DNA from: Thiorhodospira sibirica ATCC 700588 | GTDB lineage: Bacteria > Pseudomonadota > Gammaproteobacteria > Ectothiorhodospirales > Ectothiorhodospiraceae | DNA: 59,871 nt | NCBI RefSeq assembly: GCF_000227725.2 | Contig: NZ_MU255056.1 | Coordinates: 648,541 to 708,411 of the forward strand | Reading direction: 5' to 3' | In this document: positions 2,572-38,165 of the stretch, one piece after another | Layout of the letters: each line of letters starts with the position of its first letter | Position numbering within the stretch: position 1 is the first letter of the stretch | Notes under the pieces: generated by a model | Database searches by the model: none | What the model was told of the DNA's origin: nothing | What the model saw: the letters and a program-made list of their open reading frames with translations, nothing else | Made by a program: the position numbers and the translations under genes

Positions 2572-3160
2572 ACTGGTCTTGGCAACCCAAAATCCGGGTA
2601 AATTGCGTGAATTATCCGCGCTGCTGGCAGAGATGCCGTGGGAGGTTCAGGCGCTGCCGGCGGATGCCCCCGCCGTGGAAGAGCACGGGCTGACCTTTGT
2701 GGAAAATGCCATTCTTAAAGCGCGCAGTGCTGCCGCGTTGATGGGCTGTGCGGCGATTGCAGATGATTCGGGGATTGAGGTGGATGCGCTTAACGGGGCG
2801 CCGGGGGTGCATTCCGCGCGGTATGCCGGAAGCCATGGCAATGATGCGGCGAATCTGCGCCGTTTGCTTGATGCGCTTGAGGGGGTCGCCCTGGCGCAGC
2901 GCACGGCCCGTTTTCGCTGTGTGATGGTGTATTTGCGCCATGCGCATGACCCCGCGCCGATCATTGCCCAAGGGGTGTGGGAGGGTTTTATTACCACCGC
3001 GCCGCTAGGCTCCGGGGGCTTTGGGTATGATCCGGTTTTTGCCTCGGACCTCGACGGCCCGACGGCGGCCCAATTATCCCCTGAGCAGAAAAACACCTTA
3101 AGCCATCGAGCCAAGGCTCTGCACGCGCTGGTTGCGCAACTGCAGGCCCAAGCGCAATGA
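2561..3160 (+). CDS. rdgB: RdgB/HAM1 non-canonical purine NTP pyrophosphatase
   Basis: Hydrolyses ITP, dITP and XTP to the monophosphates, keeping deaminated purines out of nucleic acid. The 199-residue product has the family hallmarks: N-terminal LVLATQNPGKLREL, the metal-binding SGIEVDALNGAPGVHSARYAG block (two overlapping shorter motifs), and GSGGFGYDPVF. The frame extends upstream to 2447, but the conserved N-terminus starts at KLVLATQNPGK. The start is therefore GTG 2561 (or the next codon, GTG 2564), with GGAG about 8 bases upstream. It overlaps the end of the ChaN-like gene by 11 bases. Its TGA overlaps the ATG of the next gene, which implies translational coupling. Confidence 0.93.
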   Translation: MVNKLVLATQNPGKLRELSALLAEMPWEVQALPADAPAVEEHGLTFVENAILKARSAAALMGCAAIADDSGIEVDALNGAPGVHSARYAGSHGNDAANLRRLLDALEGVALAQRTARFRCVMVYLRHAHDPAPIIAQGVWEGFITTAPLGSGGFGYDPVFASDLDGPTAAQLSPEQKNTLSHRAKALHALVAQLQAQAQ

Positions 3161-3780
3161 GCTGGCTGCGGCTTCCTGCTTTGGCGAGGCTATTTTGTGG
3201 GCTGTGGCTGTTGTGGCTCGGGGTCAGTATATCCACGCTGGCGGCGGCGCAAGGCATTGAGGTTCGCTTTGATGCAGAGCGCATCGAGATCAATCTGGAT
3301 GTGGTGGTGAATGCTCCCGAACCGCTGGTCTCGCAGATCGTGTATGACTATGATCACTTGGGCAAGGTGTTTCCCTTGGTCTCACGCAGTCATCTGATCC
3401 GGGAAATGGGCGATGGGCGGGCGCGGGTGCGGGCTGATCTTAAAGGTTGCATTCTGGGCATCTGTCGCGAGATGCTGCATGTGATGGACGTGGTGCGTAC
3501 CAACACGGGCTGGAATCAGGGCCGCACAGTGCCCGCTCAGAGCCATGTCCGTGCCAGTGAGATTCAATGGCGCATTGATGGGGTCAACCCGACCCAGACC
3601 CGTTTACAATTATCCGGCTGGGTGGAACTGGGCCGGCGTATTCCGCCGTTGATCGGTCGCCCCTTGATGCGCCGCGAGATCCGCCAGCAATTGGCCACCT
3701 CCGCTGCCCGCCTGGAAAAGGCCGCGCAGCCGCTCAGACCCCTTTTAATGGAGAATGGAGAATTGCGCGTTGAACATTGA
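3157..3780 (+). CDS. Exported SRPBCC/START-like (polyketide cyclase-like) protein
   Basis: A 207-residue protein with an N-terminal hydrophobic signal (LFCGLWLLWLGVSISTLAAA) followed by a domain that reads like the START/SRPBCC ligand-binding fold. The diagnostic segment is INLDVVVNAPEPLVSQIVYD then YDHLGKVFPLVSRSHLI, the usual opening of coenzyme Q-binding/cyclase-type members. Its start codon sits in the rdgB stop (ATGA overlap). The ligand is unknown. An inverted-repeat element (3750-3827) overlaps its last codons, so the C-terminal residues MENGELRVEH may be repeat-derived. Confidence 0.7.
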   Translation: MSWLRLPALARLFCGLWLLWLGVSISTLAAAQGIEVRFDAERIEINLDVVVNAPEPLVSQIVYDYDHLGKVFPLVSRSHLIREMGDGRARVRADLKGCILGICREMLHVMDVVRTNTGWNQGRTVPAQSHVRASEIQWRIDGVNPTQTRLQLSGWVELGRRIPPLIGRPLMRREIRQQLATSAARLEKAAQPLRPLLMENGELRVEH

Positions 3781-3827
3781 GAATAATCAGACGTTTTATT
3801 GCTTTACTTCTCAATTTTCCATTCTCC
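3750..3827. repeat. Imperfect inverted repeat between SRPBCC gene and mfd
   Basis: A 16-base arm at 3750-3765 (GGAGAATGGAGAATTG) pairs with CAATTTTCCATTCTCC at 3812-3827 with a single mismatch, across a 46-base AT-rich spacer. The left arm lies inside the last codons of the preceding gene. A related GGAGAATTGAGAAT motif is found at 1369-1382. It looks like a small mobile or decayed repeat, and it argues that translation of mfd starts downstream of it. Confidence 0.6.
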
Positions 3828-3854
3828 CTGCATAGACCACTGATTGATTCGTTG

Positions 3855-6800
3855 ATGTCTCACACATATTCCCCCTTTCATCCGCCCTCGACCGCTCAAG
3901 CCAAGGCTTTGCAATGCTGGCAGGGGCTGTCGGATACGGCGCTGGCCTTAAGCCTTGCCCGCTCCTTGCAGCTAGCGCCCCGGCCCATGTTGATCATCAC
4001 CGCTGATGTGCAACGCGCCCAAAGCCTGCAAGAGGCCATGCAATTTTTTCTGGCTGACGATGAAAGCCTGCCCATTGAGCGCCTGGCGGATTGGGAAACC
4101 CTCCCCTATGACGTGTTTTCTCCGCATGAAAACATCGTCTCCCAACGTCTGCAATGCCTCTCCCAACTGCGTCATTTTGTCGCCGGGGCCTTGATTGTGC
4201 CGGTGAGTACCTTGATGCAGCGCCTGTGTCCGCAGGATTGGCTGCTGGGGCAATGTTTTGCCCTGCACTGTGGTCAGCGACTGGATCAGGGCCGTTTTCG
4301 CCATACCCTTACGCAGGCGGGCTATCGCCTGGTGCAGGAGGTCATCGAGCACGGCGAATTTGCGGTGCGGGGCGGGATCTGGGATATCTTTCCGATGGGC
4401 TCAGAGCAACCCTTGCGCATTGAATGGCTGGATGATCAGATCGACTCGATGCGCTTTTTTGATCCCCAGACGCAGCGCTCACAGGCACAGACTGCGGGCG
4501 CTGGGTCCGCGACGATTGACTCGATCCAATTACTTCCGGCGCATGAGTTTCCGCTCAATAAGGACGCGATTGAGGGCTTTAAGCAGCGTTATCGCCAGCA
4601 ATTTCCGGGCACTGTACGCGACTGCGTGATCTATCGCGAGGTCAGCGAAGGGCGCGCACCCGCCGGGATTGAATACTATCTGCCCTTGTTTTTTGAGGGG
4701 CTGGAGACGCTGTTTGATTATTTGTCGGCGCAGACCGAGATGATCCGCATTGGCGACATCCCCACGGCGGCCCAGGCCTTTGCCGATGAAATCGTGCGGC
4801 GCTATGAACAGCGCGCCCATGATCGGCTGCGTCCCCTGCTGGCCCCGGAACAGCTCTACCTCAGCCCCGAGGAACTCAGCAAGGCCCTGCACACGCAGCG
4901 AGGTATCTGGATCGAGGCCCCCTCCCCGCCGGGGGATGCCAAGGTTTGCACATTCACGCGCAGTCCTGCCCCAGCGGTGCGCCTGGATCAGCGCCTTAAA
5001 AACCCGGCGCAGGCCCTGCATGAATTCCTTGCGCAGACGCCAGGGCGTGTGCTGTTTTGTGCCGCATCCATGGGGCGGCGCGAACAACTGCACATGCTGC
5101 TCTCTGGCACCGGCATTGCGACTCAAACCGTTGCCAACTGGCCCGAGTTTCTGCGTGGCTCCGTGCGCTATGGGCTGACCATCGCCCCGCTGGAACAGGC
5201 CCTGTCCGTGGCGGCATCTTGCAGAGGCCGCGATGTTGAAGCAACACCTGAAAGGTGTCGCCACGACGCAGACGAAGAAACGCTGACCATTATCACCGAA
5301 ACCTGCCTGTCCGGTGAGCGGGTCAGCCAGCAACGGCGGCGCTCCCGTCATACCCCCGATGCCGACGCCCTGATCCGCAATCTCAATGACCTGCATCTGC
5401 AAGACCCGGTGGTGCATGAGGAATATGGGGTAGGTCGCTATCTGGGCTTGCAAACGCTGGCCATTGGCGGCCAGACCCAGGAATTTCTCACCCTCGCCTA
5501 TGCCGGGGGTGACAAGATTTATGTGCCGGTCGCTTCGCTGCACCTGATCAGTCGCTACAGCGGCGCCGATCCGGCCCAGGCTCCGCTGCACAAACTCGGC
5601 ACTGAGCAATGGGTACGCGCCAAACGCAAGGCGGCGGAAAAAGCCTACGATGTGGCTGCTGAACTATTGGCCATCCATGCCAAACGGGCGGCCACTCCGG
5701 GCCAAGCCTGCGTACTGGATGCGGATGCTTATCAGCGCTTTGCAGCGGCCTTTCCCTTTGAAGAAACCGCCGATCAACAGCAGGCCATTGAGGCGGTGAT
5801 GGCCGACCTGACAGCCAAACAACCGATGGATCGAGTGATTTGCGGCGATGTCGGCTTTGGCAAAACCGAGGTGGCGATGCGAGCGGCCTTTATTGCCGTA
5901 CATGCCGGTCGCCAGGTCGCCGTTTTGGTGCCCACCACCCTGCTGGCAGAACAGCATCAGCAAAATTTTCAGGATCGCTTTGCCGATTGGCCGGTGCGCA
6001 TTGAGGCCCTGTCGCGTTTTCGCTCCCCCAAACAGCAGCAAAGCATCCTCCAGGCCGTGCAGGAAGGACAGGTTGACATTCTCATCGGTACCCACCGCTT
6101 GCTGCAAAAAGATGTGCGCTTCAAACAACTGGGGCTGGTGATTGTCGATGAAGAGCAACGCTTCGGCGTGCGCGACAAAGAGCGTCTTAAAGCGCTGCGT
6201 GCCGAGGTCGATATGCTCACCCTGACCGCCACGCCGATCCCCCGCACCCTGAACATGGCGCTGGCGGGGCTGCGCGATTTATCCATTATTGCCACGCCCC
6301 CCACCGAACGCCTCGCCATCAAAACCTTTATCAGCGAGTGGAACGATGCACTGATTGAAGAGGCGATTTTGCGCGAGCTGCGGCGCGGCGGACAGGTGTA
6401 CTTTCTGCACAACAGCGTACAAACCATCAACACCATGGCCGAACGTCTGCGCCAGATGATCCCGGCGGCCAGCATCGGCATCGCCCACGGCCAGCTCAGT
6501 GAGCGCGAACTTGAGCGGGTGATGCTGGATTTCCATCATCGCCGCTACAATCTCTTAGTGTGTACTACCATCATTGAAAGCGGCATTGACATCCCCACCG
6601 CCAACACCATCATCATCCACCGTGCCGACAAGTTGGGGCTGGCCCAACTGCACCAGCTGCGTGGCCGGGTCGGGCGCTCCCACCACCGTGCCTATGCCTA
6701 CCTGCTCACCCCCGCCCCCAAGGCCATGACCCCTGATGCGGTCAAACGGCTTGAAGCGCTGGCCGCACTCGAAGATTTAGGCATCGGCTTTACCTTGGCC

Positions 6801-7406
6801 AGTCATGATCTGGAAATCCGGGGCGCAGGAGAATTACTTGGGGATGAGCAAAGCGGCCAGATGCACGAAATTGGCTTCAGCCTCTATCATGAACTGCTGG
6901 AGCGGGCCGTGCGCACCCTCAAGGCCGGCGGTGAACTCGACACCATGCTGGATGCCCCCACGCAGCAGGCCACCGAGGTGGACCTGGGCATTCCCGCCTT
7001 ATTGCCCGATACCTATGTCGCGGACGTACACACCCGCCTGATTCTGTATAAGCGCCTGGCCAGCTGCGCAGATGAAGCCGCCTTGCGCGAGATGCAGGTG
7101 GAAATGATCGACCGCTTCGGACTGCTCCCCGAGCCCGCCAAACATCTGATCGAGGTCACCCGGATCAAATTGCTGGCAAAAACCTTAGGCATCCGTAAGC
7201 TGGAAACCGGGCCACACTCTGGACGCCTGGTATTCATCCCCCAACCGCCCGTTGACCCGCTCAAAATCATCCAGCTGGTGCAAAAAGACCCCAGCCGCTA
7301 CCGCCTGGATGGCCAGGATACCCTGCGCTTTACCCGGCCCATGCCTGAAGCGCACAACCGCATCCAGACCGTGATCACCCTGCTGAGTGAGTTAACAAAT
7401 CATTGA
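3855..7406 (+). CDS. mfd: Transcription-repair coupling factor Mfd
   Basis: Mfd is a DNA translocase that removes RNA polymerase stalled at lesions and recruits UvrA. From ATG 3855 the product is 1183 residues, slightly longer than the ~1150 usual in gammaproteobacteria. In order it has a UvrB-like N-terminal module, the RNA polymerase-interaction domain beginning near residue 515 (DPVVHEEYGVGRYLGL), and a RecG-like motor. The motor carries Walker A GDVGFGKTE (~663), the DEEQ box DEEQRFG (~764) and RGRVGRS (~935), followed by the C-terminal D7 domain. The frame is open to 3777 but that part overlaps an inverted repeat, so 3855 is preferred. Oddity: residues ~450-473 are encoded by a REP-like palindromic element (5207-5265) absent from other Mfd proteins as I know them. 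Confidence 0.97.
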   Translation: MSHTYSPFHPPSTAQAKALQCWQGLSDTALALSLARSLQLAPRPMLIITADVQRAQSLQEAMQFFLADDESLPIERLADWETLPYDVFSPHENIVSQRLQCLSQLRHFVAGALIVPVSTLMQRLCPQDWLLGQCFALHCGQRLDQGRFRHTLTQAGYRLVQEVIEHGEFAVRGGIWDIFPMGSEQPLRIEWLDDQIDSMRFFDPQTQRSQAQTAGAGSATIDSIQLLPAHEFPLNKDAIEGFKQRYRQQFPGTVRDCVIYREVSEGRAPAGIEYYLPLFFEGLETLFDYLSAQTEMIRIGDIPTAAQAFADEIVRRYEQRAHDRLRPLLAPEQLYLSPEELSKALHTQRGIWIEAPSPPGDAKVCTFTRSPAPAVRLDQRLKNPAQALHEFLAQTPGRVLFCAASMGRREQLHMLLSGTGIATQTVANWPEFLRGSVRYGLTIAPLEQALSVAASCRGRDVEATPERCRHDADEETLTIITETCLSGERVSQQRRRSRHTPDADALIRNLNDLHLQDPVVHEEYGVGRYLGLQTLAIGGQTQEFLTLAYAGGDKIYVPVASLHLISRYSGADPAQAPLHKLGTEQWVRAKRKAAEKAYDVAAELLAIHAKRAATPGQACVLDADAYQRFAAAFPFEETADQQQAIEAVMADLTAKQPMDRVICGDVGFGKTEVAMRAAFIAVHAGRQVAVLVPTTLLAEQHQQNFQDRFADWPVRIEALSRFRSPKQQQSILQAVQEGQVDILIGTHRLLQKDVRFKQLGLVIVDEEQRFGVRDKERLKALRAEVDMLTLTATPIPRTLNMALAGLRDLSIIATPPTERLAIKTFISEWNDALIEEAILRELRRGGQVYFLHNSVQTINTMAERLRQMIPAASIGIAHGQLSERELERVMLDFHHRRYNLLVCTTIIESGIDIPTANTIIIHRADKLGLAQLHQLRGRVGRSHHRAYAYLLTPAPKAMTPDAVKRLEALAALEDLGIGFTLASHDLEIRGAGELLGDEQSGQMHEIGFSLYHELLERAVRTLKAGGELDTMLDAPTQQATEVDLGIPALLPDTYVADVHTRLILYKRLASCADEAALREMQVEMIDRFGLLPEPAKHLIEVTRIKLLAKTLGIRKLETGPHSGRLVFIPQPPVDPLKIIQLVQKDPSRYRLDGQDTLRFTRPMPEAHNRIQTVITLLSELTNH
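5207..5265. repeat. REP-like palindromic element inside mfd
   Basis: The segment begins CGTGGCG and ends CGCCACG. It holds two successive hairpins: GCGGCATCT...AGAGGCCGC and CAACACCT-GAA-AGGTGTCG. The same architecture occurs at 43990-44062 in an intergenic space, and single hairpins of the family occur at 18140-18170 and 53874-53904. It is translated within mfd as SVAASCRGRDVEATPERCRH, between the conserved stretches APLEQAL and TLTIITE. Confidence 0.75.
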
Positions 7407-7423
7407 ATCTAAAATAAAAATTT

Positions 7424-8167
7424 ATGAATAACACGCGCCGTCTGTATACCGATCTGGCGTGGCTATGGCCCCTGTGGGGCGATGCTACCACCGAATACGC
7501 CCAGTATTGCCAATACCTCACCGGCCTGATTCAGCAGTACACCCGGCGTCCTGTGGCGAGCTTGCTGAACATCGGCTGTGGCGGTGGCAAAAACGTCCTC
7601 AATCTAAAACAGCACTTCGCGGTCACCGGCATTGATCTAAGCCCGGTCATGCTTGCACAGGCGCAGAGCTTGAATCCAGAATGCACCTTCATCCAGGCCG
7701 ATATGCGCACCTTTGACCTGGGGCAGACCTTCGACGCCATCCTCATGGATGATGCCATCTCATACATGACCCGCCGGGAAGATTTCAGCGCCGCCATGCG
7801 CGCAGCGTATAACCACCTAAAGCCCGGCGGGGTAATGATTACCACCCCGGATACCACCTGCGAAACATTTCAGCAAAACGCCACCCACAGCACCCACGCC
7901 AGCCGGGACGGATTAGAGGTCGTGTTTATCGAAAACGGCTATGATCCCGACCCCACCGACACACACTACGAAGCCACCATCCTCTATCTCATTCGCCAGC
8001 ATGGCACGCTACGCATGGAAACCGACCACTGGCGCCTGGGAATATTCCCCCTGGACACATGGCGGCATGTCCTCACGGAAACCGGCTTTGATATCCACGA
8101 AACCGCATATCGTCAGGAAGAAGATCAATACACCGTGTTTGCGTGTATCAAGCGCGCTGCCGATTGA
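7424..8167 (+). CDS. Class I SAM-dependent methyltransferase
   Basis: A 247-residue Rossmann-fold methyltransferase. Motif I is LLNIGCGGGKNVLNL (residues ~46-60), followed by the acidic residue of motif II in VTGIDLSPVMLAQA and by ADMRTFDLGQTFDAILMDD (motifs III-IV). The overall pattern fits the broad Methyltransf_11/25 group. The substrate cannot be read from the sequence. It begins 17 bases after the mfd stop and may be cotranscribed with it. The gene to the right is convergent. Confidence 0.82.
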   Translation: MNNTRRLYTDLAWLWPLWGDATTEYAQYCQYLTGLIQQYTRRPVASLLNIGCGGGKNVLNLKQHFAVTGIDLSPVMLAQAQSLNPECTFIQADMRTFDLGQTFDAILMDDAISYMTRREDFSAAMRAAYNHLKPGGVMITTPDTTCETFQQNATHSTHASRDGLEVVFIENGYDPDPTDTHYEATILYLIRQHGTLRMETDHWRLGIFPLDTWRHVLTETGFDIHETAYRQEEDQYTVFACIKRAAD

Positions 8168-8217
8168 ACGCCCTCAGTCGAACGCGCGTGCATAACATCC
8201 GGGGCGGCTGAGGCCGT

Positions 8218-8877
8218 TTAGCGTGGTTCAGTGTCTGAAGGGCGGCAGTGCGGTGCTTGCAGCAGATTGAGTTGTGTCGGCAGTTCGGCTTTCACGGTGT
8301 GCGCCTGTTCGGGCAGGGCCTTGAAATCAATCCAGTACATGGTGAGTGTCAGGGTGCGGGTTTCAATCTCGGCAAAATGGCCCAGACGCTTGAGTTCTTC
8401 GACCCGCCGTTGCGCCCTGGCGTGTTGGGAGAAAACGCCAAGCGCCAAGGCGTTGTTTTTCTCCCCTTCGGTGATGACATACAGATCCTCAATGCCTTGT
8501 TCGCTGAGTCGGCTGACCAGCTTGCGCGCCTGTTCACGCGTAGGTTGTGGCGGCAAATAGACACGATAGCCCAGGGTTTCCTGTTTTTCCACGGTGCGTA
8601 GCTCGGCCTCCAGGCCACGCGTTCTGAGGTGCGTCAAGGCATGTTGGGCGCTGGCCTGAAAACGAAAGGGGCCGATGGCATGGCAGATCAGTACCGGCGG
8701 GCGTTCATGCAAGAGCCACAGTGTTCTCAGCTGGGTTTCGCTTGAAGATGGCGGATTCTGCACGGTCGTGGGGACAGCGGGGGGATGGATTTGGGTATGC
8801 CACAAGGCATAGACAATATTGAGCAGGAGCAACAGGAAAAACAGCACCCGCATAAAAACTGCATGGCGTGGTGTCAT
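8218..8877 (-). CDS. SPOR-domain membrane protein
   Basis: About 219 residues from the ATG at 8877: a short cytoplasmic start, one transmembrane helix (VLFFLLLLLNIVYALW), a proline-rich linker, and a C-terminal SPOR domain. The SPOR part is seen as GPFRFQASAQHALTHLRTRG, GYRVYLPPQPTREQA and LYVITEGEKNNALALGVFS. SPOR domains bind peptidoglycan lacking stem peptides at the division septum, so a role in envelope or division biology is likely. The frame stays open into coaX, but the upstream part only repeats coaX in another frame. It follows coaX closely, consistent with one operon. Confidence 0.8.
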   Translation of the reverse strand: MTPRHAVFMRVLFFLLLLLNIVYALWHTQIHPPAVPTTVQNPPSSSETQLRTLWLLHERPPVLICHAIGPFRFQASAQHALTHLRTRGLEAELRTVEKQETLGYRVYLPPQPTREQARKLVSRLSEQGIEDLYVITEGEKNNALALGVFSQHARAQRRVEELKRLGHFAEIETRTLTLTMYWIDFKALPEQAHTVKAELPTQLNLLQAPHCRPSDTEPR

Positions 8878-8926
8878 GCGGTGTGCGTGTGGGCCTTGGG
8901 ACTCCCAGGCAGATGCTTCGGCATGA

Positions 8927-9688
8927 TTAGCCACGGCGATGTTCGCCCGCAAGCACAGCCAATCCCTCCAGCACCAGATCATCCACACAGGCATAGTCCC
9001 CGTGCAGCCAGGGCTGCAGCATGCTGGCATCGCCCCCCGTCAGGAGGGTGTGCGCCGGGGTGGGCACGGTGTTGCTGATCTGGGCACACAAGCCTTCAAT
9101 GGCGGCGGCCAGGCCCAGCAAGGTGCCACTATGAATGCCATCGGCGGTGTTGCAGGCCAGCGGCGTGATGGTGTTTCCTTCGGTCGGGGGCAGTGCCGCC
9201 AATTCGCTGCTCAATGCCCGGCGCATCAGCCCCACGCCCGGCAAGATCAGGCCGCCCCGGTGAAGATTATCAGCATCCAGATAATCCAGGGTCAAGGCAG
9301 AACCGGCATCTATCACCAGCAGGGCGCCATCGGGGTAATGGTGGCGGGCGCCCAGCATGGCCAGATAGCGATCAATCCCCAGTCGTTGCGGCTCGCTGTA
9401 GGCGCTGCGTAGCCCCAATGCCAGGATGTCGGCGGCGCTGACCGTGTAGGGCATCGGCCAGGCGTGTTGTTGACACCATGCGCGGAAGTCATTGCAAAAA
9501 TCCTCTGCCAGTACGCTGGCAAGGTAGATGCCCTGATCAGGCCGTGGGAGCTTGCCAAGGTGCGCAAATAACCGCGCCCTGGCGTGGGCGGCATAGGGCA
9601 GGGCGGTGCTGTGACTTGGGTGGTGCAGATCATCAAGCCAGCGCCATTTCAGGCGGGTATTGCCCGCATCGAGCAATAAAAAAGCCAT
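8927..9688 (-). CDS. coaX: Type III pantothenate kinase CoaX
   Basis: Phosphorylates pantothenate, the first step of coenzyme A synthesis; the type III enzyme is not feedback-inhibited by CoA. The 254-residue product starts MAFLLLDAGNTRLKW, the phosphate-binding DxGNT motif. It also has LGIDRYLAMLGA and the second phosphate loop IDAGSALTLDYL, then the conserved GGLILPGVGLM. The start at 9688 is set by the DxGNT motif at residue 7; the longer open frame upstream has no homology. The gene follows the isochorismatase-fold gene by 17 bases. Confidence 0.95.
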   Translation of the reverse strand: MAFLLLDAGNTRLKWRWLDDLHHPSHSTALPYAAHARARLFAHLGKLPRPDQGIYLASVLAEDFCNDFRAWCQQHAWPMPYTVSAADILALGLRSAYSEPQRLGIDRYLAMLGARHHYPDGALLVIDAGSALTLDYLDADNLHRGGLILPGVGLMRRALSSELAALPPTEGNTITPLACNTADGIHSGTLLGLAAAIEGLCAQISNTVPTPAHTLLTGGDASMLQPWLHGDYACVDDLVLEGLAVLAGEHRRG

Positions 9689-15003: not shown

Positions 15004-16359
15004 TATAGTGGACCCCGAAATCTGGACAACAGCTTAAGCGATGACAAAGCCTCCAGCATGGGGTAGCGAAGAGATGAGCGAGAAGAGGAAGCGGAACACA
15101 TACAACGCCGAGTTCAAGGCCAAGGTCGGGCGTGAGGCGATCCATGGGGTCAAGACCGTCAACGAGATGGGTCAAGCCTACGGGGTTCACCCGGTGCAGG
15201 TCAGCAAGTGGAAGAAGGCAATCGTTGAGCAGGCAGGGACGCGCTTTGAGGGCAAGCGTGGTCCGAAACCGGCAGCGGAGCAGGACTCGCCGGATCGGCT
15301 CTACAGCGAGATGGGCCGCCTGAAGATGGAGCTGGACGGGGACTGGCTCAAAAAAAACAGGGATCACCCTGCCATGAGCCGCCAGGGCTGGATTGAGGCG
15401 GAGGGTGCGCGCTCCATCGTGCGGCAGTGTGAGCGGGCGGAGGTAGCTCGAGCGACCGTATACGCGCATCGCCATCCATCACAGGAGAACGCGACGGCGC
15501 TGCTGCTGTGCCGTCTGCTCGACGAAATCTATACGCGGCGACCGCTCTACGGGAGCCGCCGGATAGTAGCCGAGCGGCGGGCACAGGGCCATGAAGTCAA
15601 CCGCAAGTGCGTGCAGCGACTGATGCGCCGGATGGGACTGGCGGCGATCGCGCCGGGCCCTCACACCCGCCGCCCGCACCCGCAGCACAAAGTCTATCCG
15701 TACCGGTTGCGTGGCATTCAGGTCATTCGGCCCAACCAGGGCTGCAGCACTGACATCACGTACGTGCGGCTAGCGCGAGGCTTTTGCGACCGGGTCGCGA
15801 TCATCGACGGGTACAGCCGAAAGGTCTTGAGTGAGCGGCTCAGCAACACCATCGATGCGAGCTTTTGCCTCGACTGTCTTGAGGAAGCCCTGCGGCTGAA
15901 CCGCCCTCCTGAAGTCTTCAACAGCGACCAAGGCGCTCAGAACACGGCGGAGCCATTCACCAGCGTGCTCAAGCGTGAAGGCATGACGATCAGCATCGAT
16001 GGCCGAGGGCGAGCCTTTCACAACATCTTCGTAGAGCGGCTCTGGCGAACGGTGAAGCATGAGGACACCGACCTCAAAGGCGACGCTGACCTGCGTGAGG
16101 TGACTCTTGGGCTACTGGAAGACTTCTCATTTTACAACGAAGAGCGCCCGCACCAAGCACAGGCCGACGAGACGCCAGCAACGGTCTACAGGACCCGGCA
16201 GGGAGGAGGTGCATTGATCGTAGACAAATACGGCCCAGGGCGGTGACGCCTACCGACGGTGAATCTGCGGCATCAGGGCAGCGCTGTGCAGCTGCGAGTG
16301 AGGGGCAGGCGATAACTTTAACTCGGCCACCTTTTGTCTTGACAATGGGGTCCACCTCA
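15004..16359. mobile_element. IS3-family insertion sequence
   Basis: The ends are inverted: GTGGACCCCGAAATCTGGACAAC-like sequence from 15008, and at the right end the complement GTGGACCCCATTGTCAAGAC reading leftward from 16355. They enclose one transposase frame. The ends are placed approximately. No target-site duplication is visible, and the gene on the right (Uma2) lacks its 5' half. The element has probably been involved in an adjacent deletion or rearrangement. Confidence 0.8.
15074..16246 (+). CDS. IS3-family transposase (OrfA-OrfB in one frame)
   Basis: Residues 1-90 form the helix-turn-helix OrfA region (TYNAEFKAKVGREAIHG; VHPVQVSKWKKAI). The rest is the OrfB integrase core with the DDE residues in STDITYV, FNSDQGAQ and FVERLWRTVKHED. 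Most IS3 members make OrfAB by a -1 shift on an A-rich slippery site. Here an A8 run at about 15350-15357 sits at the junction (WLKKN), and the two parts read through in one frame. The open frame reaches back to ATG 15041; MSEKRKRNTYN at 15074 is the likelier start. The junction residues look altered compared with typical members, so activity is uncertain. Confidence 0.85.
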   Translation: MSEKRKRNTYNAEFKAKVGREAIHGVKTVNEMGQAYGVHPVQVSKWKKAIVEQAGTRFEGKRGPKPAAEQDSPDRLYSEMGRLKMELDGDWLKKNRDHPAMSRQGWIEAEGARSIVRQCERAEVARATVYAHRHPSQENATALLLCRLLDEIYTRRPLYGSRRIVAERRAQGHEVNRKCVQRLMRRMGLAAIAPGPHTRRPHPQHKVYPYRLRGIQVIRPNQGCSTDITYVRLARGFCDRVAIIDGYSRKVLSERLSNTIDASFCLDCLEEALRLNRPPEVFNSDQGAQNTAEPFTSVLKREGMTISIDGRGRAFHNIFVERLWRTVKHEDTDLKGDADLREVTLGLLEDFSFYNEERPHQAQADETPATVYRTRQGGGALIVDKYGPGR

Positions 16360-16595: not shown

Positions 16596-18125
16596 ATGCC
16601 AATCGTTAGTCATTATCCCAGTCCTCACGCATCACCGGATGGAGCAACAGCGACGATCCACCGCACCCTGCACCTTTTGATTGAGCGCCTGGGCTGTTCG
16701 GCAGCTCCGCCGGATGGCCTGCTGACAGCGCGGGTGATTGGTGAATTTTCTGCAGGCAAGACGCGTCTGTTGCGTGAATTGTTGGGCGAGCAGATTCCGC
16801 CAGCGCTGTTTCCAGTCAGTTCGCTGGAGCGTCAAACCCGCTTGCCGCTTGAAATTACCTACGGTGATCCGGCCATACTGGAGTTGATAGAACGCGCCAA
16901 CGATTACGACCCGGCAACGGTAATCAAGCCTTTGGACGCTTTCCCGCAGCGTGAACAACTGGCTGATTATGATCCGCAACGCTATCGCTTGCGCCTGGCG
17001 ATTCCTGAGCTTCGGTTATTTTTACCGACGGGTGATCATTATGGCGAGGACGATCAGGCACCTAAACGCCTGCTGTTGATCGATATGCCAGGCTGGAATT
17101 CAGGTGATGACAAAATTGCCGAAGGGGATGCTGCCGATATGCTGGCGGGCTATCACAATCTGGCGCTTGTTTTTGTCGTTAATGCCACGCGCCTTGACGG
17201 ACAGGATAACCACGAGCGTTTGCGTGATTTTCTCAATGCCTTGGTTGATGCCGATTTTGTAGGACAACCAACGTTGCTGGTTGTGATCACACACTGCCCG
17301 CCCGCTGACGCCGAGCGACTCCGTGCACGCATGCACAAACACATTATGTCTTTGTGGGCGGAGCTGGATCAGGATCTTGCATCACTGCAACTGCAGCTGC
17401 TAACCGTTGATTTTCCGGTATTGACTGCCGATGAACGTGCCACCTTTCGCGAAACTTTCTGGAGGCATCTGCTGGCCCCGATACAGCAAACCTCCGCTGC
17501 AGTGCCCATGCCCCCCTGGATTGTGGCCATGCGTCATTGGTCTGGCGATGCTAATCCCTGTTCACACCTACCCCAAGCGGCTGAGTGCATTGCCCGAGCG
17601 CGGGCACTGCTCGAACGCGCCTGCCAGAACGGGGATTTTCTGCCCGGCATGAATATGCACCGCCTGTTGGGGCTTGATGCTAAAGGCATTCATACACGTT
17701 TACTGGAAACCTGGCGGCGTCAGTTAAAATATGCTGATCTGGAGCAACTTGCGCATTATCTCGCCGTGCCGGCATCCCTTGCAGACGAGCATCCCCTCGC
17801 GCCTTGGTGGAATGACTACTGGCAAGCCAATCTGGAGCGGCTGCTTATGCCCACGCGCCGCTTTATGGTATTGGCTGAGCGTGTGCTCTGTGAAGTGCAG
17901 CCAGATACTGAGGATCTGCGTGCCCATTTAGCCGCACGCTTGACCAATCCGCACCGTCAGGCCATGCAAGCACTGGATTGCAGCTTTAGCTGTCTGGTCG
18001 AGACGGCGCAGATGCTGCTTGAGAACACACAGCCTCCACAAGCCATTGCCACACTCTTAAGCCTGTCTCTGATGGAGGCGCGCTATGCGGATCATTACGC
18101 CTGGGCGATGGATGATTTTTTGTAA
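16596..18125 (+). CDS. Dynamin-like GTPase, first gene of Hsp70-like operon
   Basis: A 509-residue protein. The P-loop is GEFSAGKT (residues 49-56). The probable switch-I threonine is T81 in RQTRLPLEITYG, a context typical of bacterial dynamin-like GTPases. The G3 motif is DMPG (163-166) in LLLIDMPGWNSG, and the G4 position reads VITHCP (~230-235) where NKxD or TKxD is usual. No membrane helix is evident. The C-terminal ~200 residues are helical with no recognised domain. It is followed by a GrpE-like gene (now disrupted) and an Hsp70-like gene on the same strand. The function of the set is unknown; membrane or envelope quality control or a defence role are guesses. Confidence 0.7.
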   Translation: MPIVSHYPSPHASPDGATATIHRTLHLLIERLGCSAAPPDGLLTARVIGEFSAGKTRLLRELLGEQIPPALFPVSSLERQTRLPLEITYGDPAILELIERANDYDPATVIKPLDAFPQREQLADYDPQRYRLRLAIPELRLFLPTGDHYGEDDQAPKRLLLIDMPGWNSGDDKIAEGDAADMLAGYHNLALVFVVNATRLDGQDNHERLRDFLNALVDADFVGQPTLLVVITHCPPADAERLRARMHKHIMSLWAELDQDLASLQLQLLTVDFPVLTADERATFRETFWRHLLAPIQQTSAAVPMPPWIVAMRHWSGDANPCSHLPQAAECIARARALLERACQNGDFLPGMNMHRLLGLDAKGIHTRLLETWRRQLKYADLEQLAHYLAVPASLADEHPLAPWWNDYWQANLERLLMPTRRFMVLAERVLCEVQPDTEDLRAHLAARLTNPHRQAMQALDCSFSCLVETAQMLLENTQPPQAIATLLSLSLMEARYADHYAWAMDDFL

Positions 18126-18139
18126 GCGGCTGATTATGT

Positions 18140-18170
18140 CACGGGGCAGCCTCTTGCAAATGTTGCCACG
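18140..18170. repeat. REP-like hairpin
   Basis: GGCAGCCTCTTGCAAATGTTGCC, flanked by ACGG and ACG, forms an imperfect hairpin. It matches the first half of the palindromic element in mfd (5207-5265) and lies in the gap between the GTPase and GrpE-like genes. Confidence 0.45.
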
Positions 18171-18430
18171 ACAATCGAACGCTCCTGCTGCATAGATTTA
18201 ACAAAAAAGTTGCTTCATCTATGAACGAAAAACAGCAAAAACGCTGGCGCGAACTCCAACGGGACGCCCAAAAAGATGTTGGCGATTATTTGTGTGAAAA
18301 ACTCACCTATCCAGACATCGTACTCTTACTTCAACAGGATCTGCAGATTCGCACGCTGATACGTGAAATCCTTGAGTGTTCACATCAAGAGGAGGTTGTA
18401 TCAGATGATAAATCCACGTCAACCGATTTA

Positions 18431-18440
18431 CCGGTGTATG
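18431..18440. repeat. Left target-site duplication of IS4-type copy 1
   Basis: CCGGTGTATG directly precedes the element and is repeated exactly at 19630-19639 directly after it. A 10-bp duplication is usual for parts of the IS4 family. Confidence 0.9.
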
Positions 18441-19629
18441 CTTACCACCTATCAGTTACTCGCGGGCATAAAAAGCGGGTAACGGGCTGTTGTTTTGGAG
18501 ACAGCGCTGTAGATAGCGCAGACCGCGTTTAAACCAGGACAGCAGGCTGCGGGAGGCTTTTTTGAAGGTCCAATGCTCAGGGTCGTGTTGGGTCTGGAGT
18601 TTTTTTCAAGGGGTGTTGGGGAGGCGAGTGCCTCGGCGCGCCCCGCACGCACGCACCAATACATGGCCAGGGCCATGATCAGGACAAGGCGCTCCAGACG
18701 GTCGGCGTGCTGGAGTTGGGAGTGCTGGAGGTTGAAGCCCCGGCTCTTGAGGTCCGAGAACATCGGCTCGATGCACCAGCGTGCGGCATAATCCAGAACG
18801 CGCGTGCGTGTGGGCAGGGCGTCCATTGCGATGATCCAGGGCTGTGGATGCCCGGGGTCGTGCAGGATCCCGAGATGGGTTCGCACCCCGCAGGCAAACA
18901 GGCCGACCTCGGTGAGATAGCGCTCGCGCACGCCTTGGGCCAGTGCCCCGGTGGTCGTCTCCTCGCTCTGCCCACTGTCGACGCGCAGGTTGCCTTTGAG
19001 CCGCAGCCGGTAGCTCCAGCCCTGGGCCTGGAGCCACTCCAACAGCGCCACGCTGGGATAGAACCGATCGGCGCAGAGCAACACCGCCACCCCGGGCGGT
19101 ACCCAAGAGCGAACCCGCTCCAACAGCCCCCGTTGCGCCTCCCAGCCGAGATTGGCCGCCCCCTCCTCGGCGCACCAGGCTAGGGGTAACGCCCGATCAC
19201 CCACGCGCAGCGCCACCATCAGCACCGCCATTCGATCTCCCAGGTCGCTTTGATCCAGACTCAACAACACCGTTTGATCGCCACTGGCCGCCTTGGCCAG
19301 CTCCGAACGTGCCCAGGGCTCCAAGATCGTCGCCGAATCGATCAGCCGATTCTTCAGCAACCGCCTCAACCACTGCTCGCGCATGTCTTGCCGCGGCGTC
19401 TCCAGTGGCAGCAGGTTGGCCAACTCCGCCGTGTTCGGCGTTTGCCCCTCCAGCATCGCTCCAACGGCCAGCGCCAGTTTGTCGACCACCGTCTTACGCA
19501 ACCCTGGATGCGCTTCGCGCAGTCCTCGGGCCACTTCTTCTGCCAAGCGTTTGACACTTCCCATGCTCACCCCTATGACCTCAGTTCAGCTATTCCTCAA
19601 AGTTTGCCATAAAAGTGATAGGTGGCAAG
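18441..19629. mobile_element. IS4-family insertion sequence, copy 1 (1189 bp)
   Basis: The element is bounded by CTTACCACCTATCA at the left and its near-perfect inverse TGATAGGTGGCAAG at the right, and is flanked by the 10-bp direct repeat CCGGTGTATG. Ends and length were fixed by comparison with the second copy at 36977-38165; both are 1189 bp and encode the same transposase. Perfect duplications and identical copies point to recent transposition. Confidence 0.93.
18452..19570 (-). CDS. IS4-family transposase, copy 1
   Basis: A 372-residue DDE transposase. Visible features are the first catalytic Asp in VLLSLDQSDLGDRM, the second in AVLLCADRFYPS, and the IS4 YREK-like region represented by RWCIEPMFSDLKSRGFNLQHS, which supplies the catalytic Glu. 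It is encoded opposite to the genes of the island. The amino-acid sequence is identical to that of copy 2, so the element is probably intact and may be active. A second in-frame ATG lies two codons in. Confidence 0.9.
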   Translation of the reverse strand: MSMGSVKRLAEEVARGLREAHPGLRKTVVDKLALAVGAMLEGQTPNTAELANLLPLETPRQDMREQWLRRLLKNRLIDSATILEPWARSELAKAASGDQTVLLSLDQSDLGDRMAVLMVALRVGDRALPLAWCAEEGAANLGWEAQRGLLERVRSWVPPGVAVLLCADRFYPSVALLEWLQAQGWSYRLRLKGNLRVDSGQSEETTTGALAQGVRERYLTEVGLFACGVRTHLGILHDPGHPQPWIIAMDALPTRTRVLDYAARWCIEPMFSDLKSRGFNLQHSQLQHADRLERLVLIMALAMYWCVRAGRAEALASPTPLEKNSRPNTTLSIGPSKKPPAACCPGLNAVCAIYSAVSKTTARYPLFMPASN

Positions 19630-19639
19630 CCGGTGTATG
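19630..19639. repeat. Right target-site duplication of IS4-type copy 1
   Basis: CCGGTGTATG immediately after the right inverted repeat, identical to 18431-18440. Confidence 0.9.
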
Positions 19640-20153
19640 ATCGGCATGAGCGGACTGAATCTTGTGTGGGCCCGTTGGCTGCAACGCCGCCTAAAGAGGT
19701 GCTTTTTGCATCCAGCAACCGTTCAGAGGCGCTGCGCGAGCAGCTTGCTCCAGAATTGGCGCTTCTGGCGCGATTTCGCTCCGATACCGAGCTGGTTGCA
19801 CTGTGGCTACTCAATGATAACGAGCCAGAGGGGCGGCAACTGCTTCGCCTGGTTGCGCTATTGGCGCAATGGGATCAGATACTGCAACTCTGGGATCATT
19901 TGGCCCAACGCTGTAAAGCAGCACAACGCCCAGCAAGCGAGGACGAGCGGCAGATCCTTGCTGCAGCCTTGGATATTCATAACCTCATCTGGCACGGTCG
20001 AGCGGCACGCCTGCAGTCCGTTGTACCCGGTACGGCCTTTCATTTCAAACAGCATGAGCGTGGCGTACAAACGGGTGAAATCATCCGTGCGCAATGGCTT
20101 CCTGGGCTGCTCAATGCCGCCGGTCAATTACAAAAAAAACCACTGGTCGAGAC

Positions 20154-23075
20154 ATGAGCACGCACTCCACCAATCAAATGTTGCGCGAGGTGATCGCGAC
20201 ATTGGATGCACTCAGTCAGCGACTGCCTCGGCGTGCCCTGCTTGCAAGACTCCAGGCCCATGCGCGTCAATACCATTTACAGATTGATCTCATTACGATG
20301 AACATGGATATCCCTTCTTATCTCAAAGACTTTTATTATTCCGAACAGATCGCGCCGCTTGCCCAAAAGCTTGCCGCTCAACCATTCTGGTGGGTTGGTA
20401 CGCTTACTCAAAAAGCGCTCATGCTTTACGACAGCCAAAGCCGCCTGCTTTGGGAAGCAAAACCGGATCAGCAAACCACGGTATCGCTACGAGAAAGCCA
20501 GCAACGTATCAAGCAACTTACCTCAAAATCGCTGGGTGAGTGGCGTCTACCTTCCAAAGATGAGTTAGTCCAATTCGCAACCCGGCAAACCAATCCGTTA
20601 CGCGGCGGCGGTAGTGATCGCTTGTTGCGCCAAGACTATTGGCTCTGCAAGGGGGGACGGATTGACCTGGATTCTGCCGCCTCGACATCCATCAATACAA
20701 ATGGCCCTGGCGCTATCATTGCCTGCAATGCATTTTTTGCCGACACCCCCGCAGAGGCTTTCATTGAAGCCGCTATTCAGCAGCGTTGGACACTTAAACC
20801 GTGCACTCCAACTGGGGCTGAAAACCTACTGGCGTCGCTTCAAGGATGTCCCGATCTGCCCACGCTCTACCAGCCGATTGACTGGCTTTGCGCCCGTTTA
20901 CCCCTACTTGAGGCGGTGCAGTTTTCCGACCCCAACAAAGGTCTGTGGGAATTTTGGGGACAAGATGCAGAAACGCTGCGTGAAGCCGGGATACGTGCCC
21001 GTAATCCTACCGATGACCTCAAAGATTGGAATATCGCCATCGACTTTGGCACCAGCAGCACGGTGGTGGCCTATGATGACAACGGTCAATCCAAACTGCT
21101 GCGCATCGGCGTTCAAGACTTCTGGGGCAAGGAAGAACCCAGCGATTATGAAAACCCAACCGTGCTCGAATTTATTGATTTGGCTGCGTTGTTTGATGCC
21201 TGGCGCAGTGAGGCTTATCGCCCTGGGGTTTTGTGGGATCAAGTACGCTGCTCACACGAGGCACTCCACAACTTGCGTCACAACGAGACCAATCCGTGCG
21301 TGGTGGCGAGTATGCTGGCCAAGCTCAAACAATGGGCCTTGCGCGAGGAGCTTGATGCTCCGCTGCGTATTACCGATCAGGCCAAAGGATTTGAGCATAC
21401 GCTTCACTCGCTGACCCTGCGTATGCCCGTCAAAGGCCAGACGCTCACGGTTGGCCCGGACGATCCTTTTGATCCAATCGAGCTTTATGCCTGGTTTCTG
21501 GGCTTGACCATCAATTGGCGCGGACGCGGCCTTTTTTTGCGCTATTACATGACTTTCCCGGTGGCCTATCCACGCAAAGTCAAGGACAAAATCCTTGCGT
21601 CTTTCCAGCGTGGTTTGCAGCGCAGCCTGCCAAAGGCGCTCATTGATCAGCCTGTTTTTGCAGATTTCACGGTTGCGGAATTGGCCAGTGAACCCGCAGC
21701 CTATGCAGCGGCTGCCTTGCCCTTGTTAGGTATTGAGCCGACGACGCAGGGCGTGGCCTATGCGGTGTTTGATTTTGGAGGCGGCACTACCGATTTTGAT
21801 TTTGGGCGTTATCGTCTGCCAAATGCCGGCGAGGAGGATGAAGGCTGGGAAGCGGTTTTTGAACATTTTGGAGCGGCGGGCGATCGGTTCTTGGGCGGCG
21901 AAAATCTTCTGGAAAATTTGGCCTACCTGACCTTCCTGCATAATCGGGAACTTTGTCGCCAGCATCGAATCGCCTTTACGCGCCCGCTGGATGCCGATGA
22001 CTTTCCTGGCGCGGAAATGTTTCTTGAGCGCACTCAGGCCGCACAAACCAATACCTTGATGCTGATGGCACGGCTACGCCCGTTTTGGGAACAGGGACAA
22101 TTACCCAATAGCAGCGGGGTAGAAAAAATCGAACTGTTAAATCGTGACGGCGGCAAAGTAAGCTGTGAACTTGCCATCCCCGAGACAGCGCTAACCGAAT
22201 ATCTGGAAATGCGTATCGAACAGGGCGTGCATAATTTTCTGGTGGCCATGCATCAAGCGTTTGCTGACCAACCGCCCGAACAGATTCATGTTTTACTCGG
22301 GGGAAATGCCAGTCGTTCGCAGATTGTAGGACGGTTATTGCTTGGATTGGGAGGCAAGCTGTTTGAGGGAAATAATCGCTGGGGGGAGTGGGGAGACGCC
22401 AGCCAAGCCGCAGAAACCCTGCGTCAATACATCAAGCAGAGCATCCAGTCTGCACGGAACGCAGAGTCTAAGCTGGATATTATGGTCAGCTCGCCGGAGA
22501 CTTCCACGGAGGAATCAACCGCTGATCCGCTACAACGTGGCGTTCAGGAAAGACTGCAGGCGTTGTTTGGTCAGCGCGCTCCCGATCTGTACCCCTACCC
22601 ACCCTTAACGATTGACCCCTCGGATATCTACCGCCCTACCGCTAAAACCGGCGTGGCGCTCGGACTGCTGCGGCTGTGCCCTGGTGGCGTGGTTAAGGTC
22701 GTCAACCATGCCATCATCAATAGCGGCGGCGAAGCGCCGTTTGCCTTTCATGTCGGACGCGAACGTCTGGGACGCTTCCAGGTTGGTCTGCATCAGGGCA
22801 GTCCTTACGGCGAATGGCATGAACTGGGTGCGCCGCGTGATGGGGTTTTCAACCTGTATTACAGCCAACTACCGCGTGCGCAAACCGGTGAACTGCGCAT
22901 CGGCGAACCGGGGCTTTACAAGCGCCGCATAGACCTAAGCGGAGAGTTATCCAGTCGCAAGGTTTTTGCACGGGCCATCGGACCCGATCAAATAGAGATC
23001 TGCACGGCTACATCCAGCACAGCCATCGCCAACGCCGAGACCGAAAACACCCGCACCGTGATACTGGATTATTAG
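20154..23075 (+). CDS. Hsp70-like ATPase with N-terminal DUF1566-like domain
   Basis: A 973-residue protein from ATG 20154, which overlaps the previous stop by four bases. Residues ~105-210 resemble the DUF1566 (Lcl C-terminal) domain: EWRLPSKDELVQFA then DYWLCKGG and a later IIACNAFF. An actin/Hsp70-type ATPase follows, with phosphate-1 AIDFGTSSTVVAYD (~294), phosphate-2 VFDFGGGTTDFDFG (~539) and the adenosine motif VLLGGNASRS (~712). The last ~200 residues are not recognisable as the standard Hsp70 substrate domain. Large insertions separate the ATPase motifs. With the upstream GTPase and GrpE-like genes it forms an unusual chaperone-type operon. The partner or substrate is unknown. Confidence 0.8.
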   Translation: MSTHSTNQMLREVIATLDALSQRLPRRALLARLQAHARQYHLQIDLITMNMDIPSYLKDFYYSEQIAPLAQKLAAQPFWWVGTLTQKALMLYDSQSRLLWEAKPDQQTTVSLRESQQRIKQLTSKSLGEWRLPSKDELVQFATRQTNPLRGGGSDRLLRQDYWLCKGGRIDLDSAASTSINTNGPGAIIACNAFFADTPAEAFIEAAIQQRWTLKPCTPTGAENLLASLQGCPDLPTLYQPIDWLCARLPLLEAVQFSDPNKGLWEFWGQDAETLREAGIRARNPTDDLKDWNIAIDFGTSSTVVAYDDNGQSKLLRIGVQDFWGKEEPSDYENPTVLEFIDLAALFDAWRSEAYRPGVLWDQVRCSHEALHNLRHNETNPCVVASMLAKLKQWALREELDAPLRITDQAKGFEHTLHSLTLRMPVKGQTLTVGPDDPFDPIELYAWFLGLTINWRGRGLFLRYYMTFPVAYPRKVKDKILASFQRGLQRSLPKALIDQPVFADFTVAELASEPAAYAAAALPLLGIEPTTQGVAYAVFDFGGGTTDFDFGRYRLPNAGEEDEGWEAVFEHFGAAGDRFLGGENLLENLAYLTFLHNRELCRQHRIAFTRPLDADDFPGAEMFLERTQAAQTNTLMLMARLRPFWEQGQLPNSSGVEKIELLNRDGGKVSCELAIPETALTEYLEMRIEQGVHNFLVAMHQAFADQPPEQIHVLLGGNASRSQIVGRLLLGLGGKLFEGNNRWGEWGDASQAAETLRQYIKQSIQSARNAESKLDIMVSSPETSTEESTADPLQRGVQERLQALFGQRAPDLYPYPPLTIDPSDIYRPTAKTGVALGLLRLCPGGVVKVVNHAIINSGGEAPFAFHVGRERLGRFQVGLHQGSPYGEWHELGAPRDGVFNLYYSQLPRAQTGELRIGEPGLYKRRIDLSGELSSRKVFARAIGPDQIEICTATSSTAIANAETENTRTVILDY

Positions 23076-36503: not shown

Positions 36504-36976
36504 TTAAGGCTGCGGGTCGGTGTTATGACTGGGCGCGGGCAAGGGCGGGCCAATCTCTGCCGGGGAGGGCAGGGCCTTGAGGGCTTGCGCGGGCGCGGAT
36601 TCCTCAGTACGTGCCTCAGTACGCACCGGGGTATCGGTTTGCGCGGGCCCGTGTTCTGCGTTCGTCGGTGCGGCATCCTCTGGGGCTTTAGAAGTCTGCT
36701 CTGCATTAGGCCGCAAGGAGCGACTGCGGCGCAAGGTGTTAGGGCGGCGTGGCTCCGCTAAGGATGGGCTATTGTCACGCGAGTCACTGCCTGACGCATC
36801 CTGCAAGGCCGGGTTGGCATCCGTGCCAGTATCCCCTTGCTCATGCAGACTGCGGCTGCCATCGGTATTGCGCGGCGTGGAGCGGCGTTTACCACGCGTG
36901 GTACGCCGTGGGGTACGGGGGCGCTGAGGCGTGGTATCGCTGCTGCCATTGCTGTCAAGCTGTGGTGGTACCTCGG
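36504..36976 (-). pseudogene. rne: 3' end of rne separated by IS insertion
   Basis: This continues the RNase E frame on the far side of the IS4-type element. With one copy of the 10-bp duplication removed, the joined frame reads [25 protein letters not shown]... and runs to the stop at 36504. It encodes about 155 disordered residues rich in Arg, Pro, Ser and Glu (RRPNTLRRSRSLRPN; PAEIGPPLPAP). This is the last part of the C-terminal scaffold. No ribosome-binding site is apparent, so it is probably not translated. Confidence 0.85.
36967..36976. repeat. Left target-site duplication of IS4-type copy 2
   Basis: GGTACCTCGG immediately left of the element, repeated exactly at 38166-38175. Confidence 0.9.
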
Positions 36977-38165
36977 CTTACCACCTATCAGTTACTCGCG
37001 GGCATAAAAAGCGGGTAACGGGCTGTTGTTTTGGAGACAGCGCTGTAGATAGCGCAGACCGCGTTTAAACCAGGACAGCAGGCTGCGGGAGGCTTTTTTG
37101 AAGGTCCAATGCTCAGGGTCGTGTTGGGTCTGGAGTTTTTTTCAAGGGGTGTTGGGGAGGCGAGTGCCTCGGCGCGCCCCGCACGCACGCACCAATACAT
37201 GGCCAGGGCCATGATCAGGACAAGGCGCTCCAGACGGTCGGCGTGCTGGAGTTGGGAGTGCTGGAGGTTGAAGCCCCGGCTCTTGAGGTCCGAGAACATC
37301 GGCTCGATGCACCAGCGTGCGGCATAATCCAGAACGCGCGTGCGTGTGGGCAGGGCGTCCATTGCGATGATCCAGGGCTGTGGATGCCCGGGGTCGTGCA
37401 GGATCCCGAGATGGGTTCGCACCCCGCAGGCAAACAGGCCGACCTCGGTGAGATAGCGCTCGCGCACGCCTTGGGCCAGTGCCCCGGTGGTCGTCTCCTC
37501 GCTCTGCCCACTGTCGACGCGCAGGTTGCCTTTGAGCCGCAGCCGGTAGCTCCAGCCCTGGGCCTGGAGCCACTCCAACAGCGCCACGCTGGGATAGAAC
37601 CGATCGGCGCAGAGCAACACCGCCACCCCGGGCGGTACCCAAGAGCGAACCCGCTCCAACAGCCCCCGTTGCGCCTCCCAGCCGAGATTGGCCGCCCCCT
37701 CCTCGGCGCACCAGGCTAGGGGTAACGCCCGATCACCCACGCGCAGCGCCACCATCAGCACCGCCATTCGATCTCCCAGGTCGCTTTGATCCAGACTCAA
37801 CAACACCGTTTGATCGCCACTGGCCGCCTTGGCCAGCTCCGAACGTGCCCAGGGCTCCAAGATCGTCGCCGAATCGATCAGCCGATTCTTCAGCAACCGC
37901 CTCAACCACTGCTCGCGCATGTCTTGCCGCGGCGTCTCCAGTGGCAGCAGGTTGGCCAACTCCGCCGTGTTCGGCGTTTGCCCCTCCAGCATCGCTCCAA
38001 CGGCCAGCGCCAGTTTGTCGACCACCGTCTTACGCAACCCTGGATGCGCTTCGCGCAGTCCTCGGGCCACTTCTTCTGCCAAGCGTTTGACACTTCCCAT
38101 GCTCACCCCTATGACCTCAGTTCAGCTATTCCTCAAAGTTTGCCATAAAAGTGATAGGTGGCAAG
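36977..38165. mobile_element. IS4-family insertion sequence, copy 2 (1189 bp)
   Basis: Same ends (CTTACCACCTATCA / TGATAGGTGGCAAG), same length and same orientation as copy 1, with its own 10-bp duplication GGTACCTCGG. It sits inside rne. Confidence 0.93.
36988..38106 (-). CDS. IS4-family transposase, copy 2
   Basis: A 372-residue transposase identical in sequence to that of copy 1 (18452-19570), with the same catalytic-motif candidates. Here it is transcribed in the same direction as rne, so transcription through rne could reach it. Confidence 0.9.
   Translation of the reverse strand: MSMGSVKRLAEEVARGLREAHPGLRKTVVDKLALAVGAMLEGQTPNTAELANLLPLETPRQDMREQWLRRLLKNRLIDSATILEPWARSELAKAASGDQTVLLSLDQSDLGDRMAVLMVALRVGDRALPLAWCAEEGAANLGWEAQRGLLERVRSWVPPGVAVLLCADRFYPSVALLEWLQAQGWSYRLRLKGNLRVDSGQSEETTTGALAQGVRERYLTEVGLFACGVRTHLGILHDPGHPQPWIIAMDALPTRTRVLDYAARWCIEPMFSDLKSRGFNLQHSQLQHADRLERLVLIMALAMYWCVRAGRAEALASPTPLEKNSRPNTTLSIGPSKKPPAACCPGLNAVCAIYSAVSKTTARYPLFMPASN

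Follow-up and report, generated by a model that had tools for sequence, protein, structure and literature searches.

A recent IS4-type insertion in an accessory dynamin/Hsp70-like operon of Thiorhodospira sibirica, probably part of its neutral decay

Introduction

The GAP1-N2 DO-GTPase conflict systems combine a GTPase, an HSP70 and a GrpE exchange factor in one neighbourhood (PMC7159879), and the CoCoNuT systems hold Hsp70-like proteins and EccE3/HerA-type ATPases (PMC11090510). A dynamin-like GTPase invites comparison with a further group, the dynamin-like defence proteins of Eleos (LeoA/LeoBC). Here, we investigated an operon in a 59,871-nucleotide stretch of the genome of Thiorhodospira sibirica ATCC 700588 (contig NZ_MU255056.1; hereafter the window, meaning this whole stretch), where a dynamin-like GTPase gene is followed by a gene that we call C and by a gene for an Hsp70-like ATPase, and where gene C is split by an insertion sequence (IS) of the IS4 type. 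A first-pass annotation of the window had proposed that the middle gene of this operon was inactivated by a precise and probably recent insertion.

The window operon resembles the GAP1-N2 DO-GTPase systems in bringing a GTPase, an HSP70 and a putative GrpE-type factor together. Those systems contain GAP1 and a different family of TRAFAC GTPases (PMC7159879); the window GTPase is dynamin-like. The likeness to CoCoNuT (PMC11090510) lies in Hsp70-like proteins that occur alongside ATPases of the HerA type. One relative of this ATPase (hit H4) adjoins a DUF2357 protein, which is a CoCoNuT-like trait; membership in the CoCoNuT/McrBC group was rejected, as the proteins of the window operon have no McrB or McrC match in Pfam. 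Membership in Eleos was rejected as well: LeoA is matched at E 3.4e-22 by the GTPase of one related locus (L011), whereas that of the window reaches only E 0.048. No description of an operon joining dynamin, C and Hsp70 genes was found in the open-access papers searched.

Results and discussion

The insertion and the interrupted gene

The account that we favour, with a probability of about 0.75, is a recent IS4-type insertion into gene C of an accessory operon, as part of the neutral decay of a sporadically distributed island. A complete element of 1189 bp lies in gene C between two perfect 10-bp target-site duplications (Table 1). For a given boundary pair, the chance that a perfect 10-bp repeat lies directly against the IS on either side is about 1e-6, and the boundary was not picked to suit the repeat, because 10 other full-length copies in the same genome end alike, sharing the terminal bases of the element to within about 2; a misassembly at 18441-19629 is ruled out by the same agreement. 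The terminal inverted repeats agree at 13 of their 14 outermost bases. Between them, an open reading frame (ORF) on the minus strand (18452-19570) encodes an uninterrupted transposase of 372 amino acids, which matches Pfam DDE_Tnp_1 (PF01609) above its cut-off (E 1.8e-11) and is thereby a DDE transposase of the IS4 type. Elements of the IS4 family generate target duplications of about 9-13 bp, and the window element shares with the family the DDE transposase, the short inverted repeats and the 10-bp duplication; it departs from it in that the transposase, at E 2e-41 and 142.2 bits, scores just below the curated cut-off of 152 for the NCBIfam model transpos_IS4_2 (NF033591). The source DNA may come from a mixed population in which only some cells carry the IS at this site.

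When the flanks (18221-18440 and 19640-20157) are joined so that only one repeat remains, they form a single frame of 738 bp, that is, 245 amino acids and a stop, with no internal stop codon. In the present arrangement, translation from 18221 terminates at 18532, within the IS. Comparison with IS-free homologues, set in advance as the test that could overturn the interruption, found none that ends at the IS: the C proteins of two related loci, L010 (a Thiocystis metagenome-assembled genome, MAG) and L011 (another gammaproteobacterial MAG), align uninterrupted through the site with both window pieces, the N-terminal piece having been matched with L010 only. Because these homologues run past the breakpoint, a natural end of gene C at this position is excluded. 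The break falls after codon 73, in a weakly conserved linker behind a short N-terminal module, and the conserved C-terminal domain lies entirely downstream of the IS. The precise insertion with perfect duplications and the single restored frame, both first-pass claims, therefore stand.

The proposal that the insertion is recent was also borne out by a second copy of the element (36977-38165), which shows 0 mismatches in 1189 positions to the copy at 18441-19629 and carries its own 10-bp duplication (GGTACCTCGG), which argues that the IS was mobile recently. The genome holds 30 matches to this IS family, 29 of them besides the copy in gene C; a third copy, on contig C5, has an internal deletion and is 100% identical in its two remaining parts. 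In our reading, a recently mobile IS4-type element entered the 245-codon gene by ordinary transposition and duplicated 10 bp of the target.

The second copy, which spans 36967-38175 with its duplications, breaks the RNase E gene (38126-40261) in its C-terminal tail, and the RNase E frame would extend more than 100 residues further without it. Since the catalytic part is unaffected, the strain probably makes an RNase E with a shortened scaffold tail.

Table 1. Features of the window operon and its surroundings, and gene order in two related loci (coordinates of L010 are those of that locus)
Feature	Coordinates	Strand	Basis or remark
IS4-type insertion sequence, complete, 1189 bp	18441..19629	-	Duplications, inverted repeats, transposase, other genomic copies
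Left target-site duplication CCGGTGTATG	18431..18440	+	10 bp, perfect
Right target-site duplication CCGGTGTATG	19630..19639	+	10 bp, perfect
5' part of gene C (73 codons) with the left duplication at its end	18221..18440	+	44% to intact L010 homologue over residues 3-65
3' part of gene C, open, whole conserved C-terminal (putatively GrpE-like) domain	19640..20157	+	ORF, alignment
Dynamin-like GTPase, 509 amino acids, open	16596..18125	+	Dynamin_N, E 5.4e-7, 30.2 bits (cut-off 27)
Spacer between GTPase gene and gene C, 95 bp	18126..18220	+	Coiled-coil gene B here in relatives; no remnant found
Hsp70-like ATPase, Lcl_C (DUF1566-type) N-terminal region, 973 amino acids	20154..23075	+	Pfam, NCBIfam, relative
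3' remnant of Uma2-type gene, 62 amino acids	16396..16584	+	PF05685, E 1.6e-5, 24.9 bits (cut-off 27)
IS3-type element, ends TGGACCCC / GGGGTCCA, transposase 15041-16246	15009..16354	+	rve and HTH_21 domains
L010 (Thiocystis MAG): Uma2, GTPase, B, C (241 amino acids), Hsp70-like	1673-2290, 2348-3868, 4628-5167, 5164-5889, 6001-9048
L011 (another gammaproteobacterial MAG): different dynamin-type GTPase, B, C (265 amino acids), start of a second gene that carries the Lcl_C-type region found in these Hsp70s

Gene C as a putative exchange factor

In all six other loci with a recognised gene C (L010, L011, an Acinetobacter plasmid (L013), a Helicobacter plasmid (L014), L031 and L069), it directly precedes a relative of the window Hsp70; two further ORFs of L014 (8080-8739 and 8752-9393) were examined and are not C homologues. 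The pairing with an Hsp70 gene recalls GrpE. In a profile comparison with nine GrpE sequences, the distant C proteins of L031, L014 and L069 reached a probability of 80.9 and a score of 38.4, the best of 60 column shuffles being 16.5, and their alignment covers the C-terminal portion of GrpE. The nine GrpE sequences come from 12 loci and none was removed for its score, the three rows left out being two minus-strand loci that had been read in the wrong orientation and a third without the filter motif at its end or the like. A mixed set of seven C rows scored 34.7 against GrpE (maximum of 40 shuffles, 16.2). The window-type C proteins, in turn, match the distant group at 29.9 with three sequences and 41.4 with four (shuffle maxima 18.3 and 17.5), and the C protein of L013 with a probability of 99.

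Set against this, the window-type proteins compared alone with GrpE stayed below the shuffle maxima (13.8 against 18.9 with three sequences, 16.65 against 20.3 with four). No Pfam family, PF01025 (GrpE) included, matched the two pieces of gene C searched in frame at E up to 0.01, and PF01025 is absent among the matches listed for the C proteins of L069, L031 and L014 at E up to 1 (for L069, 25 of 30 families). NCBIfam and PADLOC gave nothing useful for the pieces, the 3' piece having been searched one base out of frame. An AlphaFold model of the Thiocystis C protein, built on three sequences only, had a predicted local distance difference test score (pLDDT) of 47.9 and was unusable for judging whether C has the helical stalk and beta-wing of GrpE. 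As window-type C proteins reach GrpE only through their distant orthologues, the comparisons support, rather than demonstrate, that gene C encodes a divergent exchange factor of the GrpE type, dedicated to the Hsp70-like ATPase next to it. The first-pass description of C as a probable exchange factor is supported indirectly, through those orthologues, and finds no backing in Pfam or in the window-type proteins by themselves. The genome also carries a normal GrpE elsewhere.

The absence of a direct GrpE signal in the window type, together with long coiled coils in several relatives of C, would also suit a coiled-coil adaptor or scaffold that joins, for example, the GTPase and the Hsp70. We regard this as quite possible, if the less probable role, because the match of the distant C proteins to the C-terminal region of GrpE clearly exceeds that of shuffles; GrpE itself, moreover, has a long helical region. 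As an exchange factor, C would act through its C-terminal domain on the neighbouring Hsp70-like ATPase. This ATPase is predicted to have a nucleotide-binding domain of the actin/Hsp70 type from signals that are weak but in the expected place: residues about 499-592 match DnaK/HscA models with E values between 5e-4 and 0.01, well short of the curated cut-offs, and the protein matches the DnaK chain 7n46_A in a profile comparison at E 0.00098. The match of its Lcl_C-type N-terminal region is below the curated cut-off.

What the insertion leaves of gene C

That the middle gene is inactivated may hold only in part: its frame is split and its translation stops in the IS, but the C-terminal domain remains open downstream, so that gene C is perhaps not fully null and residual production of this domain is possible. 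The 3' fragment is open for 180 codons from a GTG at 19615, further in-frame GTG codons lying at 19633, 19666 and 19699, and keeps the conserved C-terminal positions. An internal start 3' of the IS, with the trimmed system still working, would be compatible with a split in a weakly conserved linker and with the ATGA by which the fragment still overlaps the start of the Hsp70-like gene. We nevertheless consider a working trimmed system unlikely: a scan of the plus strand from the IS to the Hsp70-like start revealed no promoter-like site (although the scan barely outdoes shuffled sequence, with 6 sites against a mean of 4.0), the transposase is transcribed in the opposite direction, and gene B, the partner present in relatives, is missing too.

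Because the start of the Hsp70-like gene overlaps the stop of gene C, translational coupling between the two has likely been lost through the insertion. Polarity on the Hsp70-like gene, also raised in the first-pass annotation, is plausible.

Decay of the operon

The two other genes are intact, as had been stated: both are open and of full length against their relatives, the GTPase being 66% identical over 493 amino acids to that of L010 (and barely similar to that of L011) and the Hsp70-like protein 68% to a relative. The rest of the operon appears to have eroded. Gene B lies between the GTPase gene and gene C in L010 and L011, where the two B genes are 60% identical, and adjoins gene C in L013, with E 4e-12 to the L010 gene. 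In the window, a tblastn search for B returned nothing better than E 0.36, the L011 protein finding the L010 gene at E 2e-59 as a control, and a search of the whole genome, run without a positive control of its own, gave no match. In L010, a full Uma2 gene stands just before the GTPase gene as a conserved neighbour; its window counterpart covers only profile positions 114-171 of 172, the last third, and adjoins the IS3-type element upstream of the GTPase gene. With the Thiocystis Uma2 as tblastn query, the sole match in the window below E 0.1 was this remnant (E 0.002), and the front of the gene was not found.

With gene B missing and Uma2 truncated beside another IS, the operon was probably not intact before the IS4-type insertion, and its description as newly crippled is only partly right, the insertion itself being recent. 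B and the front of Uma2 would probably have gone first, from an island that was probably acquired horizontally. Since the operon was probably already degraded, the IS is best seen as a case of neutral decay rather than as a single breaking event. The alternative offered in the first-pass annotation, that the loss of the exchange factor was selected because it silences a costly conflict system, finds no support and is very improbable: the GTPase and Hsp70-like genes do remain open and of full length, and elsewhere in the family there are conflict genes nearby (HEPN, HerA-type ATPase, toxin-antitoxin), but the 30 matches to the IS family make insertions common in this genome, an identical copy also struck the RNase E tail, parts of the operon were probably already gone, and there is no sign of selection.

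Some points tell against recent insertion into an already decaying operon. The age of the IS is read from the identity of its copies, which gene conversion could produce equally, and the genomes searched include no other of the same genus for a comparison with an empty site. B may have been gained by the relatives rather than lost from the window; the genes in the position of B in L031 and L069 resemble each other (E about 1e-7), and it is doubtful whether they are related to B (16% identity).

Distribution and possible function of the operon family

Relatives of the window Hsp70 were found in one of the 96 nearest genomes, the strain's own, in 3 of the 369 genomes of the class and in 44 of the 398 genomes of the phylum, the own genome included in each count, and mostly as one per genome in the phylum. 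A search of phage records gave no match, and one of viral contigs gave only short matches to the ATPase motif (10 of 10 covering 84-113 residues), which were left out of all counts of operon members.

Where gene C and Hsp70 occur together, their neighbours vary. Along with the pair, the Acinetobacter plasmid encodes a WYL regulator, a HerA-type ATPase, HEPN and dynamin proteins and an integrase; the Helicobacter plasmid encodes an FtsK-type ATPase, an HNH nuclease and an SMI1 partner; and L031 and L069 encode a HerA-type ATPase. The GTPase, the Hsp70 and the missing partner B may have formed one accessory machine driven by nucleoside triphosphates (NTPs), possibly an anti-phage or other conflict system. 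More broadly, the GTPase, coiled-coil B, a GrpE-like factor representing a new family and an Hsp70 with a DUF1566-type N-terminus could make up a conflict system that is NTP-driven, moves horizontally and is so far undescribed. The Hsp70 with its private exchange factor would then act as the switch, the partners varying between dynamin-like GTPases and HerA or FtsK ATPases, and the window would hold a decaying copy. We put this forward tentatively and think it doubtful in its full form. That 44 of the 398 phylum genomes carry a relative of the Hsp70, mostly one each and, in the loci inspected, mostly without a recognised C or B, speaks against a role in defence alone and may point to a core role elsewhere. 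Among 18 phylum loci inspected (in L065 the chosen ORFs missed the Hsp70), 17 have no recognised C or B and only L069 shows one; these Hsp70s thus often stand alone, which weakens C as an obligate partner of the whole family.

The insertion event is routine, and the operon family behind it merits more attention, because little has been described of this gene set, whose divergent Hsp70, seemingly with a private exchange factor, travels with dynamin-like or HerA/FtsK ATPases. Should it be a defence or conflict system, it would exemplify a chaperone cycle serving as a switch; the idea can be tested on the intact relatives that other gammaproteobacteria possess.

Further observations concern individual loci. 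Those from L057 to L074 are, L069 apart, stand-alone Hsp70-like relatives, usually one per genome, with no recognised GTPase, B or C. L031 (5839-17440) and L069 (6411-18949) contain, besides the HerA-type ATPase gene and gene C, a gene for a protein of 221-222 residues and repeated Hsp70 genes, some apparently split or truncated. On the plasmids L014 (5100-13810) and L045 (4691-13090), an HNH nuclease gene and an SMI1/KNR4 gene stand by an FtsK- or HerA-type ATPase gene and Hsp70 or dynamin genes, an arrangement that suggests interchangeable switch modules around a nuclease effector. In L012, the Hsp70 relative adjoins a JetD-like gene.

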